DNA from: Oscillospiraceae bacterium
Lineage (GTDB): Bacteria > Bacillota > Clostridia > Oscillospirales > Oscillospiraceae
Direction: 5' to 3'
NCBI GenBank assembly: GCA_902778285.1
Contig: CACYXC010000005.1
Coordinates: 1 to 44,721 of the forward strand
Length of the DNA: 44,721 bases
The notes under the pieces were generated by a model. That model saw only the letters and a program-made list of their open reading frames with translations, was not told where the DNA came from and did no database searches. This document shows, piece by piece, positions 5,409 through 28,197 of the stretch; position 1 is the first letter of the stretch; each line of letters opens with the position of its first letter. A program made the position numbers and the translations under genes.

Positions 5409-5696
5409 CTATTTCGCGTCGAGCCCGCAGAGCTCGCGCGCCCGGTCGGCGTCTTTTCTGCGCACATAGATCATATAGACGTAAGAGATCTGGTCCGAAA
5501 AGCTCGAGGCAGGCATGCCGCCCCTGTATGCGCTCACCCCATAGGAGGAATGGAGCGCTTTGCCGAGCGCGGTGTGATTCTGGACGGTCCGCATGTCGTA
5601 GGGGATGCCGTTGGCTTTCAGCTTTTCACGGACCTTCGCAGCCGCCTCGCTGGAGGAGTCGGCGAACAGGCGCACACGGTTGAAAATACTGACCAT
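5409..5696 (-). CDS. Small soluble protein, DUF2007-like
   Basis: A 95-residue protein without signal peptide or membrane segment. The N-terminal half (RVRLFADSSSEAAAKVREKL, then a short loop GIPYD) has the pattern of DUF2007 putative signal-transducing domains: a strand, a helix of alternating charge, then G-I-P. The C-terminal half contains VYMIYVRRKDADRAREL, a strand plus helix. AAAGGAG lies six bases before the ATG. It stands alone and is transcribed away from the DUF378 gene. The family assignment is tentative and no function is known. Confidence 0.6.
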   Translation of the reverse strand: MVSIFNRVRLFADSSSEAAAKVREKLKANGIPYDMRTVQNHTALGKALHSSYGVSAYRGGMPASSFSDQISYVYMIYVRRKDADRARELCGLDAK

Positions 5697-9406: not shown

Positions 9407-9949
9407 ATGATGAAACAGTACGTTTTCGCCGGCTTCGGCGGACAGGGCATGCTGCTGATCGGCAAGTTCCTGGCCATGGCCAACATGCTCGACGGCAGGC
9501 ACGTCTCCTGGCTTCCCTCCTACGGTCCCGAAATGCGCGGCGGCACGGCCAACTGCTCCGTCACCGTCTCCGATGAGGAGATCGGCTCTCCCCTGGTGGA
9601 CAACTGCGACGTGCTGATCGCCATGAACCTGCCCTCCCTGGACAAGTTTGAGCACACGGTCAAGCCCGGCGGCCTGATCGTCGTCAACTCCTCCATCATC
9701 GACCGTAAGGTGCAGCGCGATGACGTGCGCGTGGTCTACTGCGACGCCAACCGCATCGCCGAGCAGGTCAAGAACCCCAAGGGCGCAAACGTCGCCATCC
9801 TCGGCGCCATGATGGGCGCGGACGAGGGCAGCGTCAGCGTCGACAAGATGGTCGAGGCCATCAAGATCGAGCTGGGCGAGCGCAAGATGCGCTTCCTCGA
9901 GGGCAACAAGGCCGCTCTGGCCGCCGGCATGGAGCTGGCCAAAGCCTGA
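9407..9949 (+). CDS. vorC: 2-oxoacid:ferredoxin oxidoreductase gamma subunit
   Basis: A 180-residue gamma subunit, opening with [19 protein letters not shown] and followed by [15 protein letters not shown] near residue 42, both hallmarks of the POR/KOR gamma domain. It starts two bases after the beta-subunit stop; only a weak AGGGGG precedes the tandem ATGATG. It completes the enzyme and ends the operon, 68 bases before a very long terminator hairpin. Confidence 0.92.
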
Positions 9950-9969
9950 GAGCAGCACAAAATATTGCT

Positions 9970-10110
9970 CGTAGGGGCGGCTATCAGCCGCCCGGCAGCA
10001 TAAAAGAAATATCAGAAAACAGTTGGGCGAATTCGTACAACCTACGAATTCGCCCAACTGTTTATTCTTTCCTGCTTTCACCGCGCGGGCGGCTGATAGC
10101 CGCCCCTACA
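9970..10110. repeat. Head-to-head pair of CGTAGGGGC palindromes around a terminator
   Basis: A forward copy (9970-9996; stem GGCGGCT/AGCCGCC) and a reversed copy (10083-10110) with the same stem face each other, with the terminator at 10017-10063 between them. This inverted-pair layout matches that of REPIN elements. Confidence 0.8.
10017..10063. terminator. Long bidirectional terminator after the vor operon
   Basis: 21-bp perfect arms (10017-10037 and 10043-10063) have loop CAACC, with AAA/TTT at the ends. It lies between converging genes and can serve both. Confidence 0.85.
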
Positions 10111-22360: not shown

Positions 22361-22485
22361 CGTAGGGGCGATTCAAGAATCGCCCGCCGACATGGTGTAA
22401 GGTTGGTCAAGCGGGACGTCGAGGACGCCGTCCCCTACGAGCGAAAACGGAGGTCTCCCCGTAGGGGCGACCATTGGTCGCCCGT
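22361..22485. repeat. Three CGTAGGGGC palindromes, alternating orientation
   Basis: Forward copy 22361-22387 (stem GGCGATTC/GAATCGCC), reversed copy 22411-22439 (GGGACG/CGTCCC), and forward copy 22460-22485 (GGCGACC/GGTCGCC). Flanks are constant while each stem differs with both arms matching. No gene is seen in 22299-22559. Confidence 0.8.
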
Positions 22486-24071: not shown

Positions 24072-24983
24072 ATGGTCACAAAAACGAATTTCGGCGCGTA
24101 CGCGCTGTATACGATCGAGGCGGGCGAGCTCGCCGTCTCGATCACGACGCTGGGCGCCACGGTGACGAGCCTGCGCTTTCGCGGCCGGGAGTGCGTGCCG
24201 GGCTATGACAGCCCGGAAGGCTACCTCGGCGGTACGGCCTACCTCGGCGCCGCCATCGGGCGCTACGGCAACCGCATCGCGCTCGCGCGCTTCACGCTGG
24301 GCGGCAAAGAGTGCATGCTGCCGGCAAACGAGGGGCCGAATCAGCTCCACGGCGGACCCAACTCCTATGACAAGCGGGAGTGGTCGGCCGAGGTGCTGGA
24401 CGACGCGGTGCGCTTCACGCTCTCTTCCCCGGACGGGGACAACGGCTTCCCCGGCGCTCTCAGCGCCGCGGTGACTTACAGCGTCAGGGGCGGCACCCTG
24501 CGCCTGGACTTCGAGGGCGACAGCGACGCCGACACGGTCTACGCCCCCACAAGCCACATGTACTTCGACCTCTCCGGGCGGGAAAACTGCCGGGAGGCGG
24601 AGCTGCAGGTCAACGCCTCGCACTATCTGGAGGTGGACGCCGGCCTGATCCCCACGGAAGTCACGCCGGTAGAGGGCACGCGCTTCGACTTCCGCAGCGC
24701 GCGGAAGATCGGACAGGCCTACGACCACTGCTTCGTTCTGGATGGGGAGACGGCCTGCGTCCTGTGCGACGGAGGGGTCCGGATGACCCTCTCCACGGAT
24801 CTCCCGGCCCTGCAGGTCTACACCGGCGAATTCCTGCCCGCGCCCTTCAAGCCCTTCGGTGCGGTCGCGCTGGAGCCGGAGAGCTTTCCCGACAGCCCGA
24901 ACCGCCCGGATTTCCCGAGCACCGTGCTGCGCGCCGGCGAGCACTTCCACCGCTGGGCGGAGTACAGATTTGAAACGGTGTGA
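24072..24983 (+). CDS. galM: Aldose 1-epimerase (galactose mutarotase)
   Basis: A 303-residue cytoplasmic enzyme that interconverts alpha and beta anomers of hexoses. Visible family marks are the opening TLGATVTSLRF, GRYGNRIALARFTLGGKE and NEGPNQLHGGPNSYDKREW around residues 75-105, with the catalytic-type HGG, THMYF-like SHMYFDLSGR near 165, YDHCFVLDG near 220, and the C-terminal LEPESFPDSPNRPDFPS containing the catalytic-region Glu. AAGGAGGAG lies upstream of the ATG at 24072; the eight extra codons of the longer frame overlap it. The transposase gene that follows overlaps its stop. Confidence 0.92.
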   Translation: MVTKTNFGAYALYTIEAGELAVSITTLGATVTSLRFRGRECVPGYDSPEGYLGGTAYLGAAIGRYGNRIALARFTLGGKECMLPANEGPNQLHGGPNSYDKREWSAEVLDDAVRFTLSSPDGDNGFPGALSAAVTYSVRGGTLRLDFEGDSDADTVYAPTSHMYFDLSGRENCREAELQVNASHYLEVDAGLIPTEVTPVEGTRFDFRSARKIGQAYDHCFVLDGETACVLCDGGVRMTLSTDLPALQVYTGEFLPAPFKPFGAVALEPESFPDSPNRPDFPSTVLRAGEHFHRWAEYRFETV

Positions 24984-25507
24984 AAAGGATGCTTCCGGCA
25001 AGGAAGGCAAATCGACTTCCGGCGTTTGATTATTCTCAAAACGGTGCCTATTTCCTTACCATTTGCACAAAAAACCGGGAGTGCTTGTTTTGGGAACAAC
25101 CTTTCCCTCCCACCGTAGGGGAGCGCACCGCGCTCCCGCAAAAGGGGTATTCCCTGTCTCAGGAGGGGGAGATCGTTCGCCGCAGGATTGAAGAGATCAC
25201 GAAGCACTATTCTTCTGTTTCCGTGGATCGTTATGTGATTATGCCCAACCATGTGCATCTTCTGCTGCGGATCGAGGAAGACGCAGGAGGCGGGCGCGCA
25301 ATGCGCGCCCCTACGGTATCGACCCTGGTTTGTCAGTTGAAAGGCGCAGTCAGCAAAGACGTGGGGCAAAAAATCTGGCAGCGCTCCTTTCATGATCATG
25401 TGATCCGAAACGAGCGGGATTACACGGAGATCTGGCAGTATATTGAGGATAATCCGCGCAGATGGAGAGAAGACAAACTTTTTTGCGCTTCTCCTGACAG
25501 GATGTGA
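24980..25507 (+). CDS. REP-associated tyrosine transposase (RAYT, IS200-like HUH enzyme)
   Basis: A 175-residue single-strand transposase of the Y1/TnpA_REP group. It opens with FDYSQNGAYFLTICTKNRE, has the HUH pair H91-V-H93 in VIMPNHVHLLL, and a C-terminal segment FHDHVIRNERDYTEIWQYI containing the candidate nucleophiles Y148 and Y154, ending DNPRRW. RAYTs nick and move REP palindromes. The start is either GTG at 24980, overlapping the galM stop, or ATG at 24989. Strikingly, the frame itself carries two palindromes of the window's repeat family, at residues 45-54 and 104-113. No IS ends are seen, as is usual for RAYTs, which stay as single domesticated genes. Confidence 0.9.
   Translation: MKRMLPARKANRLPAFDYSQNGAYFLTICTKNRECLFWEQPFPPTVGERTALPQKGYSLSQEGEIVRRRIEEITKHYSSVSVDRYVIMPNHVHLLLRIEEDAGGGRAMRAPTVSTLVCQLKGAVSKDVGQKIWQRSFHDHVIRNERDYTEIWQYIEDNPRRWREDKLFCASPDRM
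25113..25317. repeat. Inverted pair of CGTAGGGGC-type palindromes inside the RAYT gene
   Basis: Forward copy 25113-25139 (flank CCGTAGGGG, stem GGGAGCGC/GCGCTCCC) and reversed copy 25290-25317 (stem GGGCGCGCA/TGCGCGCCC, flank CCTACGG). Both stay in frame; the second encodes GGRAMRAPTV. Confidence 0.85.
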
Positions 25508-26437: not shown

Positions 26438-28006
26438 TCAGGACCACTCGCCCTTGTATTCCGAGAACTTCACGTAGACCACGCCGTCGATCACGCGGAT
26501 GGAGCCCGCGTCGGGATAGACCGGCATGTCCTGCGTGCGCGCATCCGCGGCGAGCGCCTTCGCCTCGGCGCGCTCGGCAAAGACCATGTTGGCCCCCAGA
26601 TACCAGCGGATGAACAGCGGCTCGGTGGAGCCGTTGAACTGGGAGTGGACCAGGATCTGCCCGTCCACGCCGTAGATGTCCGGGTCGTTGACGAAGAGCT
26701 CCGGGATCTCCTCGAGAAAATCGCTGGCCGAGTCGTAGAGCGCCACGGGCATGTCCTCCCGGTACTCGGGCAGGGATCGGATCTGCGTCACGAGCGTTGT
26801 GGCGAGGGAATAGGCGCTCTCGTAGTGCAGCTCAAGCTGCAGATAGCTGCGGTTGGCGTAGATGACGTTCAGCAGCACGATGAGCGCCAGCGCCGCGCAG
26901 CCGAGATCCTTTCCGGCGTTTTTCCATTTGACCGGCAGCTGCTCGAGGCCCAGAAAGACCAGAACATACAGGCATACGAAGCCGTAGAGCACCAGCGTGT
27001 GGATCCTTCCCCAGTCGATGATGAGATAGAGGCAGCACAGCGCAAGCGGCAGCAGCAGCAGGATGAAGAGCAGCAGCAGGGTCTGCCGCGGCTTTTTCGC
27101 CCGGAGCTGGCTGTACACCAGCCCCGCGGCACACAGCAGGAAGGCCAGAAAATGCAGCGCCCGCGAGAGCTTGGAGACGATCAGCATGTTGTAGCGGGAG
27201 GTCAGGTTGTACACGAACATCCCGTAGGCCGTGGCGACGCCCTTCAAAAGACCGGGCCCCATGTAGAGCGCCTCGTTGGTGTACTCGTTGGCGTCGATGC
27301 CGACGATGCGCAGCGCGATGTTGATGGACACGCGGTAGAGCCCCGCGCCGAGGGCGAGCAGCAGCAGATAGCGCAGGCCTGTCCGGAAAACGGCGGGGGA
27401 GCGGTCCTCCGCCCCGGCGTCCAGAATGTCCTTCACCAGCAGCAGCAGGAGCAGCCCCGCCGCGATGGACACATAGCCCTGGTAGATGCTCAGCGCGAAC
27501 ACGAGCGGCGGCACGAAGCACAGAAAGCCGCGCCAACCGCGGAGGCTGCGCGCCGCCCACACGGCGAACACCACCAGCAGGAAGGCCAGCGCGTAGCTGC
27601 TCGCGACGAACATGAAGCTGAAGTTGCCGATCTGGGACGGAAAGACGATAATCAGCGCGGGCAGCAGGATCTGCGCGAGCGGGCTTTTGAACGCGAACAT
27701 GCGCACGATCAGGCAGGCGGCGGCGGAGAGCAGCAGCAGGCTCACCACGCCGTGCAGCCAGGGCATGGTGAAGTTCGGGATCAGCGCCTGCACCAGCACC
27801 AGCCCCCAGCGGCCGGAGCCCACGGTCTCCCCCTTGCCGAAGAGATAGCGGACGCCGTCGTAGTTGGGCAGGTTGTTGGTGATCACGTACATGTGCGCCA
27901 GCAGCCCCGCGATCAGCGAGGACAGGAGCGGCAGGCGGTTGGCCCGCAGCACGCCGCCGAGGCGGCGCAGGCAGCGCTCCAGCAGGCTTTCGTTTGTGTC
28001 GGTCAT
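26438..28006 (-). CDS. Polytopic glucosyltransferase-domain (GtrII-like) membrane protein
   Basis: A 522-residue membrane protein with about eleven helices. An N-terminal LAHMYVITNNLPNYDGVRYLFGKGETVGSGRWGL loop, followed by repeated hydrophobic segments and a ~100-residue C-terminal extracytoplasmic part, is the layout of GtrII-type glucosyltransferase-domain proteins. These transfer glucose from a lipid carrier to surface polymers. The Asp of NYDGVR in the first loop is the candidate catalytic acid. AGGAGG lies upstream of the ATG at 28006; the longer frame would run through a palindromic repeat. No glycan cluster surrounds it, so its acceptor is unknown. Confidence 0.72.
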   Translation of the reverse strand: MTDTNESLLERCLRRLGGVLRANRLPLLSSLIAGLLAHMYVITNNLPNYDGVRYLFGKGETVGSGRWGLVLVQALIPNFTMPWLHGVVSLLLLSAAACLIVRMFAFKSPLAQILLPALIIVFPSQIGNFSFMFVASSYALAFLLVVFAVWAARSLRGWRGFLCFVPPLVFALSIYQGYVSIAAGLLLLLLVKDILDAGAEDRSPAVFRTGLRYLLLLALGAGLYRVSINIALRIVGIDANEYTNEALYMGPGLLKGVATAYGMFVYNLTSRYNMLIVSKLSRALHFLAFLLCAAGLVYSQLRAKKPRQTLLLLFILLLLPLALCCLYLIIDWGRIHTLVLYGFVCLYVLVFLGLEQLPVKWKNAGKDLGCAALALIVLLNVIYANRSYLQLELHYESAYSLATTLVTQIRSLPEYREDMPVALYDSASDFLEEIPELFVNDPDIYGVDGQILVHSQFNGSTEPLFIRWYLGANMVFAERAEAKALAADARTQDMPVYPDAGSIRVIDGVVYVKFSEYKGEWS

Positions 28007-28052
28007 AAAATGGCCTCCTAAGGGAAAGAAGGGGGTAAAAATGCCCTCTTGA

Positions 28053-28197
28053 CCGTAGGGGCGGCTATCAGCCGCCCGGCGGTACAACAAAACGACATAG
28101 GGGAACGGCAATGCGAATTCGTTCATCCGGGCAGGTCCGCACTCTGTTTTGCGAAAAACCTAAGAGGCCGCGCGGGCGGCTGATAGCCGCCCCTACG
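28053..28197. repeat. Head-to-head pair of CGTAGGGGC palindromes
   Basis: Forward copy 28053-28080 and reversed copy 28170-28197, both with stem GGCGGCT/AGCCGCC, are separated by 89 bases. This is nearly the same pair as at 9970-10110 but without a long terminator between. Nothing coding is seen in 28007-28235. Confidence 0.85.

Follow-up and report, generated by a model that had tools for sequence, protein, structure and literature searches.

Matched, facing REP palindromes inside the reading frame of RAYT genes

How do REPs originate, and what keeps a RAYT paired with its repeats? The locus described here raises both questions within a single gene, as two REP palindromes lie inside the reading frame of a transposase. 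The gene lies in a stretch of 44,721 nucleotides (contig CACYXC010000005.1 of assembly GCA_902778285.1, from an Oscillospiraceae bacterium), which we call the window. A sequence-only reading of the window had started from the premise that RAYTs act on REPs outside their gene. This premise is incomplete, as in-gene REPs have been published for TnpA_REP subclass 2.4 (Quentin et al, 2018; PMC6006769). According to the accessible sections of that paper, REPs of this subclass, which the authors take to be the same as RAYT group 4 (Bertels et al, 2017), can occur, and even predominate, in tnpA_REP genes with the frame left intact, generally in a peripheral region between HuH and Y. The same sections name Cyanobacteria, Bacteroidetes and various phyla as carriers and propose a “double foot” origin for palindromes tagged at both ends. 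The bare observation of REPs within a RAYT gene is therefore not new, and the analysis below concerns how the two palindromes are arranged, related to each other and related to the repeats of the genome.

The window gene and its two palindromes

The protein encoded by the window gene scores 70.2 bits against the NCBIfam model NF047646, under its 80-bit cut-off, and 26 bits against Pfam Y1_Tnp, which exceeds the cut-off of 23; all 47 members of our protein alignment (A1) match NF047646 at E ≤ 0.001. Its predicted structure (mean pLDDT 86, pTM 0.81) is closest among PDB folds to 4er8, a REP-associated tyrosine transposase in complex with a REP hairpin (E 1.8e-7), followed by transposases of the IS200/IS605 type, and it has the Y1 HUH transposase fold with an HUH motif and a single catalytic tyrosine. 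H91 and H93 of the HUH motif (H91-V-H93) and Y154 are invariant in the 47-row alignment. The HUH motif lies where the sequence-only reading had placed it; as for the candidate tyrosine, the invariant residue is not that of “DYTE”, but Y154 within WQYIEDNP. NHVH and WQ motifs are present, and the tyrosine motif YIEDNP is one residue off YIxNNP. The gene also has an in-frame REP between HuH and Y, a trait of subclass 2.4, and judged by its sequence it probably belongs to this subclass (RAYT group 4). The genome contains three full RAYTs and one RAYT pseudogene, and both paralogues are 48% identical to the window gene. No outer inverted REP pair lies beside it, the nearest exact CGTAGGGG outside being at 22460 and 28054. 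The locus does not have the make-up of an IS200/IS605 insertion sequence: neither near-identical copies nor, by exact tag, outer hairpin ends were found.

Two in-frame palindromes were confirmed where the sequence-only reading had placed them, on either side of the HUH-coding segment (Table 1). Site A reads CGTAGGGGAGCGCACCGCGCTCCCG from 25114, and site B reads CGGGCGCGCAATGCGCGCCCCTACG up to 25315, in the loop after the HUH strand; both are in frame, and the hairpins occupy 25115-25138 (forward) and 25292-25315 (reversed). They are of a single type, as had been described, but not identical: the tag is shared, and the differences are one compensated stem pair (A-T versus C-G) and the loop. The pair is less alike than in other genes, with an alignment score of 18, where 27 identical bases would give 27. 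In the predicted structure, the residues of both sites form neither helix nor strand. Mean pLDDT is 59, 70 and 75 in the blocks 41-50, 51-60 and 101-110, and 90-98 in the blocks 21-40, 61-100 and 111-160.

Table 1. Coordinates of the RAYT gene, its in-gene REPs and the other REPs of the window.
Feature	Position	Strand	Remarks
RAYT/TnpA_REP coding sequence	24980..25507	+	ORF; GTG start, 175 aa
Site A: forward REP, tag CGTAGGGG and hairpin	25114..25138	+	encodes VGERTALPQ, residues 46-54, low-confidence loop
Inner segment between both REPs	25139..25290	+	encodes first long helix, two strands, HUH motif
Site B: reversed REP	25291..25315	-	tag on minus strand; encodes GRAMRAPT, residues 105-112
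F/R REP pair, GGCGGCTATCAGCCGCC class, unrelated spacer; REPIN-like	9970..10109		layout as in-gene pair
Second F/R pair, GGCGGCTATCAGCCGCC class, different spacer; REPIN-like	28054..28197		
Three REPs of differing classes, order F, R, F	22361..22485		

The window contains 12 copies of the 8-mer CGTAGGGG, where 1.04 would be expected, and none of 100 shuffles reached this count; judged by eye, several of the 12 (for example, at 5597, 19614 and 30648) have no hairpin behind them. The two GGCGGCTATCAGCCGCC-class pairs have identical REPs and unrelated spacers and measure ~140 bp overall. This class is found in the pair of no RAYT match in the window's genome; it does occur in the pair of a gene from another genome (L010, G090). 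A listed ORF on the minus strand (26438-28126) runs through a REP (28054-28126) at its 5' end; its start is probably further in, and the REP is thus likely intergenic.

A matched pair in relatives and its constraint at the DNA level

Relatives came from two sources: a draw of 300 genomes of the family, 96 of which had a RAYT match, and a species-level contig scan, from which the best 80 loci of 349 relatives were taken, together with stretches around many further matches. Of 240 ORF matches, 40 duplicates, 13 without a readable HUH and 13 short ones were removed, which left 174 genes, mainly of one family, plus Clostridia. In each gene, the stretch from 75 to 20 residues ahead of HUH (region A) was aligned to the reverse complement of region B (3-62 residues after it). 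This comparison revealed a facing pair in the same two protein loops in 99 of the 174 genes (score of at least 14), where 5.8 were expected with swapped partners. The summed A/B score was 2952.5, and none of 5000 permutations reached it (maximum 1621.5). Orientation is strongly biased, with 106 forward and 5 reversed tags at A and 118 reversed and 16 forward tags at B in the 174-gene set. Measured from the HUH codon in the 161 genes whose flanks were complete, forward hairpin tags concentrate near -132 nt and reversed ones between +30 and +90 nt; few lie elsewhere from -240 to +200. The standard tag is missing on at least one side in 4 of the 99 paired genes; among the 95 pairs with both tags, the main frame is used by 86 at A and 80 at B. 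The two palindromes of a gene are identical over 24 nt in 38 of these 95 pairs and have at most two differences in 76, against a mean of 10.6 differences between the palindromes of different genes. By single linkage, the palindromes fall into 14 classes. Site B of some genes (L220, L087, L083 and L216) contains repeated in-frame REP-like units in a longer loop after HUH, about six of them in L220.

The pair changes less often along the gene tree than in shuffled data. On the tree of 168 genes, the state switches between pair and no pair 26 times, where shuffling gives a mean of 54.6; in the 91 paired genes, the 26 greedy REP classes require at least 40 changes, compared with a shuffled mean of 69.9. 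Few branches of these trees are well supported. A wider draw of 348 genomes across the phylum gave 29 loci that were read, 25 of them with a RAYT-like ORF and a readable HUH. One of these (L260) comes from the window's family, and among the other 24 a matched A/B pair was found in one (L259). By tag counts alone, L256, L258 and L262 combine an upstream forward tag with a reversed one at B, and in other loci tags lie outside; the weakest RAYT-like loci of this draw are probably other Y1 transposases. Taken together, the matched facing REP pair is very probably an anatomical part of these RAYT genes.

Is the pair maintained as DNA or as peptide? When both sites were reshuffled synonymously, none of 9500 reshuffles reached the observed match (23.6, expected 8.8). 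Chance and codon bias as the source of the pair are ruled out by these reshuffles and by the window shuffles. At the tags, GTA is the codon for Val in 81 of 86 cases, GGG that for Gly in 86 of 86 and CCT that for Pro in 75 of 80; in the remainder of these genes, the corresponding figures are 174 of 934, 139 of 625 and 114 of 646. As the tag sites were picked by their sequence, this bias follows from the choice of sites, and it is the reshuffle that provides the test. In the 84 sites with the commonest geometry (class I), 249 of 252 stem positions are paired, where shuffles gave 120 at most. Stem differences between A and B of one gene are compensated in 23 cases, the window gene among them, wobble in 7 and broken in 7. 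The question posed by the sequence-only reading, whether synonymous sites are constrained and stems covary, is thereby answered in the affirmative. The peptides themselves vary, with 66 different ones among the 86 main-frame sites at A and 64 among the 80 at B. Outside the REPs, dN/dS is 0.08-0.22 in six of eight gene pairs, the other two being saturated at synonymous sites, and by this sequence measure the protein there is under purifying selection. The pair is thus a DNA-level feature of the gene, with fixed position and orientation and a mostly fixed frame, constrained as hairpins, alike within a gene and different from gene to gene.

The peptide at site B had been described as common in related enzymes, and [APSRVLCF]PT indeed follows HUH in 99 of the 174 relatives. 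A shared origin of protein motif and DNA site is supported in the sense that the REP encodes the APT loop: the tag is present in 96 of these 99 genes, and at most three encode the same peptide without a palindrome, a combination that the earlier reading had named as evidence against itself. Loop length does not support a clean REP insertion, as REP-free homologues are barely shorter: their site-B region has a median of 41 versus 43 residues (p 0.13), and their site-A region is only two residues shorter.

The layout of matched REPs was also scanned up to 220 bp past the core on either side. Besides the 99 genes with a forward REP in A and a reversed one in B, 24 of the remaining 75 have one or both matched REPs outside the gene: forward upstream and reversed downstream in 12, forward upstream and reversed in B in 8, and forward in A and reversed downstream in 4. 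Another 18 of the 174 have no recognisable REP in or near the gene, and 33 have other arrangements. An extra REP lies just outside the gene in 13 of the 99 A/B genes. Among the 161 genes with full flanks, an upstream forward REP is present in 4 of 93 genes with a forward REP in A versus 34 of 68 without one, and a downstream reversed REP in 6 of 99 genes with a reversed REP in B versus 29 of 62 without one. After correction for descent, the exclusion between A and upstream was not significant (six supported independent pairs; none same, on average 4.3 opposite; p 0.125), and that between B and downstream showed no trend in four supported independent pairs. In all four layouts, the HUH segment lies between the REPs, which suggests that each gene has one pair, whose members may lie inside or outside.

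Shared REP classes and possible traces of loss and exchange

The claim that the enzyme and the repeat family are partners is supported, with exceptions, by the match between the REP class of a gene and that of its genome. Copies of five class-specific patterns, with a tolerance of one mismatch, were counted across 55 whole genomes and tallied by hand. Extra copies of the class outside the gene were found in 12 of 14 bearer genomes and in 33 of 261 non-bearers (p 7e-9, uncorrected for relatedness). Nine genomes without a RAYT match had no copy for four of the patterns and a single copy, in G006, for the fifth. In G111, the variant base of the gene is common to 34 other copies found there. On the side of the exceptions, a class is abundant in each of G090, G174, G219 and G252 and no gene of that class was found there, and in G190 and G092 the class is confined to the gene. 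The class of the window gene has two further copies in its own genome and none in the five congeners tested. In sampled contexts of ~20 kb or less per region, a near-identical REP lies nearby in 14 of 62 paired genes (2.7 expected; 9 of 5000 genome permutations were as high), and 24 of 71 paired genes have an extragenic REP sharing at least 16 of 19 body bases.

Plain counts of the 8-mer point the same way. Median density of CGTAGGGG is 38.5 per Mb with a RAYT versus 18.9 without (p 5e-6; 105 of the 300 genomes, 36 with and 69 without), and in the window's genus the counts are 156, 71 and 193 with a RAYT match versus 15, 7 and 19 without. As a test of partnership this count is weak: the reversed control word is common too, and the tag abounds in G006 and G031, neither of which has a RAYT match; the class patterns were used instead. 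These two genomes partly represent the repeat-rich genome without a RAYT that the sequence-only reading had set against its proposal. G006 has 491 CGTAGGGG and several hairpin REPs in one 9.4 kb contig (L233), and no RAYT match was found in it even by profile; its assembly is 88% complete, and it may hold an orphan REP population or reflect an assembly gap. G031, likewise without a RAYT match even by profile, has 339 CGTAGGGG, putative tags of REPs.

Individual loci show traces of either activity or recombination at REPs. In the RAYT pseudogene of the window's genome (G000:C17; L194, ~9913-9950), the segment between the REPs is gone and one double-tagged palindrome is left; one paralogue (L002/L173) has a full pair of the same class, and in the third RAYT (L003) no GTAGGGG tag lies inside the matched region or up to 60 nt from it. 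With the upstream DNA judged by eye, RAYT similarity starts at the forward tag in L225 (G012:C20) and in L226/L075 (G179:C117), and at the reversed one in L230 (G174:C39); the contig of L226/L075 ends 96 nt beyond its tag on the upstream side. Site A of L223 contains an old-class REP cut mid-way, followed by two REPs of the resident class, which is also present at B and has 18 more copies elsewhere in G149. An insertion of new REPs was the first reading of this site; it was demoted by the cut old REP and by the identities to the paralogue L181 (31/40 before, 22/43 inside and 34/53 after the pair), a pattern that makes recombination as likely as insertion.

On both sides, the inner flanks of the G201 REPINs that belong to the gene's class resemble those of the gene itself. 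Such resemblance was counted in 8 of 135 comparisons within a genome and in 19 of 1994 others; the comparisons are not independent, and four of the eight come from one genome. That REPINs are internally deleted gene copies is thus a lead, mainly from one genome. The sequence-only reading had suggested that the gene could be its own substrate or a source of new repeats; what bears on this is indirect, namely the pseudogene G000:C17 and the REPIN flanks of G201. REPIN families of G201, G252 and G174 (L235-L253) share a REP class and have spacer lengths and motifs specific to each genome, and some G174 spacers contain a second hairpin, as judged by eye.

Explanations for the in-gene pair and comparison with known systems

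The best explanation of these findings, which we consider reasonably likely, is that the coding sequence of the RAYT itself contains the enzyme's cognate REP pair; from the sequence comparisons, we also lean towards the in-gene pair being the cognate substrate of the encoded enzyme. The two REPs would correspond to the inverted REPs found on either side of classical RAYT genes, here lodged in peptide-tolerant loops, the forward one before the first long helix and the reversed one after the HUH strand. The enzyme would recognise such hairpins on single-stranded DNA. Strand transfer among REPs of a class, or template switching between the facing copies, may keep the in-gene copies similar to each other and to the genomic REPs. 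Wherever the gene goes, the pair would link the enzyme to a founder copy of its substrate, and it could be kept because it ties the enzyme to that substrate or because it regulates the gene.

Could the pair be a by-product of something simpler? Selfish REPs that inserted at random and survived in two tolerant loops, linked only by their shared genome, would fit the low-confidence loops at both sites and the multiple or tandem REPs at A or B of L223, L220, L087 and L083, and REPs in unrelated genes are known (Di Nocera et al, 2013; PMC3733652, as far as its accessible sections go). Yet random insertion would give neither so exact a match nor a single orientation and frame, and the window has several REP classes while one class occupies both sites of the gene; we consider it quite improbable. 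Equally exact copies might arise by mutation alone, through template switching at replication, to which neither the enzyme nor selection would contribute. Perfect inverted copies ~200 bp apart are a classical substrate for template switching, and the genes of G190 and G092, to which the class is confined, agree with such a process. It leaves unexplained why tag and hairpin are retained in coding DNA of deeply diverged genes, why layouts with an outside REP exist and why the class is shared with genomic REPs, and we regard mutation alone as unlikely.

The outside-REP layouts are equally foreign to a role in the mRNA, in which each hairpin, or a long stem between the copies, would control translation or stability of the transposase. 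Identical facing copies of 25-30 nt could pair together and the compensatory changes do preserve hairpins, but this role, improbable in our estimate, needs no match to genomic REPs. The stretch from F to R might instead be a mobile cassette, a REPIN with an HUH-coding spacer that is exchanged among RAYT genes and shed as REPINs. The pseudogene that lost this interval and kept one double-tagged palindrome would fit, as would the loss of RAYT similarity upstream of the F tag (L225, L226/L075) or the R tag (L230), the gene-like inner flanks of G201 REPINs on both sides, and gene pairs that are close outside and distant inside (for example, L206/L191, 0.34 versus 0.69). Against the cassette, ordinary recombination also produces breakpoints at repeats, L226/L075 soon meets its contig end, and the flank resemblance concerns few REPs, half of the eight from one genome. 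Correlations between inner and outer distances are weak (0.17 and 0.20), but so is that between the two outer parts (0.15). We hold a mobile cassette to be rather unlikely.

The cognate in-gene pair thus remains the reading that we prefer, and its wider implications are offered more cautiously. That the genes are a source of REPINs is a tentative idea drawn from the sequences. Similarly speculative, and doubtful as a whole, is the scenario in which the ends recognised by the enzyme moved into the reading frame, where a private, co-evolving pair seeds the REPs of each new host and, once the catalytic segment between its copies has been lost, is given off in the form of double-tagged palindromes and REPINs. 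If this were true, a transposase gene would be enzyme, substrate and seed at once. With the enzyme and its presumed substrate encoded on the same DNA, sequence comparison gives direct access to their partnership, and the many gene-specific REP types, each with its enzyme, would provide natural specificity pairs for binding and cleavage assays. The genes also provide a clean case in which DNA-level structure overrides protein sequence in a coding region, with loops that accept many peptides.

In the literature found, as far as the accessible sections go, there is no report of a matched in-gene pair, a site before HUH, identity within the gene, compensatory change or the layouts described here. 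The closest known counterparts are the subclass 2.4 genes (PMC6006769), with which our genes share in-frame REPs, NH[IFV]H and WQ motifs and GT[AG]G tags; the pseudogene G000:C17 also resembles what is described for that subclass. Unlike subclass 2.4 as the available text describes it, they have a further site ahead of HUH, two facing REPs that match and class identity within the gene, and the compensatory change and the apparent exclusion between inner and outer REPs likewise go beyond that description. GTAG-tagged REPs (PMC3733652) similarly lie wholly within ORFs and add to the protein; those described in the accessible part of that work are in many unrelated genes at mostly differing sites, with no pair in RAYT genes described there. 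With REPINs (Bertels & Rainey, 2011; PMC3116915), as the consulted sections define them, the in-gene unit shares the layout of two inverted REPs and a spacer, and REPINs of the same class exist in these genomes. Unlike a REPIN, the in-gene pair has a coding spacer of ~150 nt, and no dispersed copies were seen in its own genome. Finally, the arrangement recalls the REPtron (Nunvar et al, 2010; PMC2817692), in which a facing REP pair encloses the HUH segment of a RAYT: in the accessible description, REPtron ORFs are always flanked by the pair, whereas in 99 of the 174 genes analysed here the pair lies inside the ORF.
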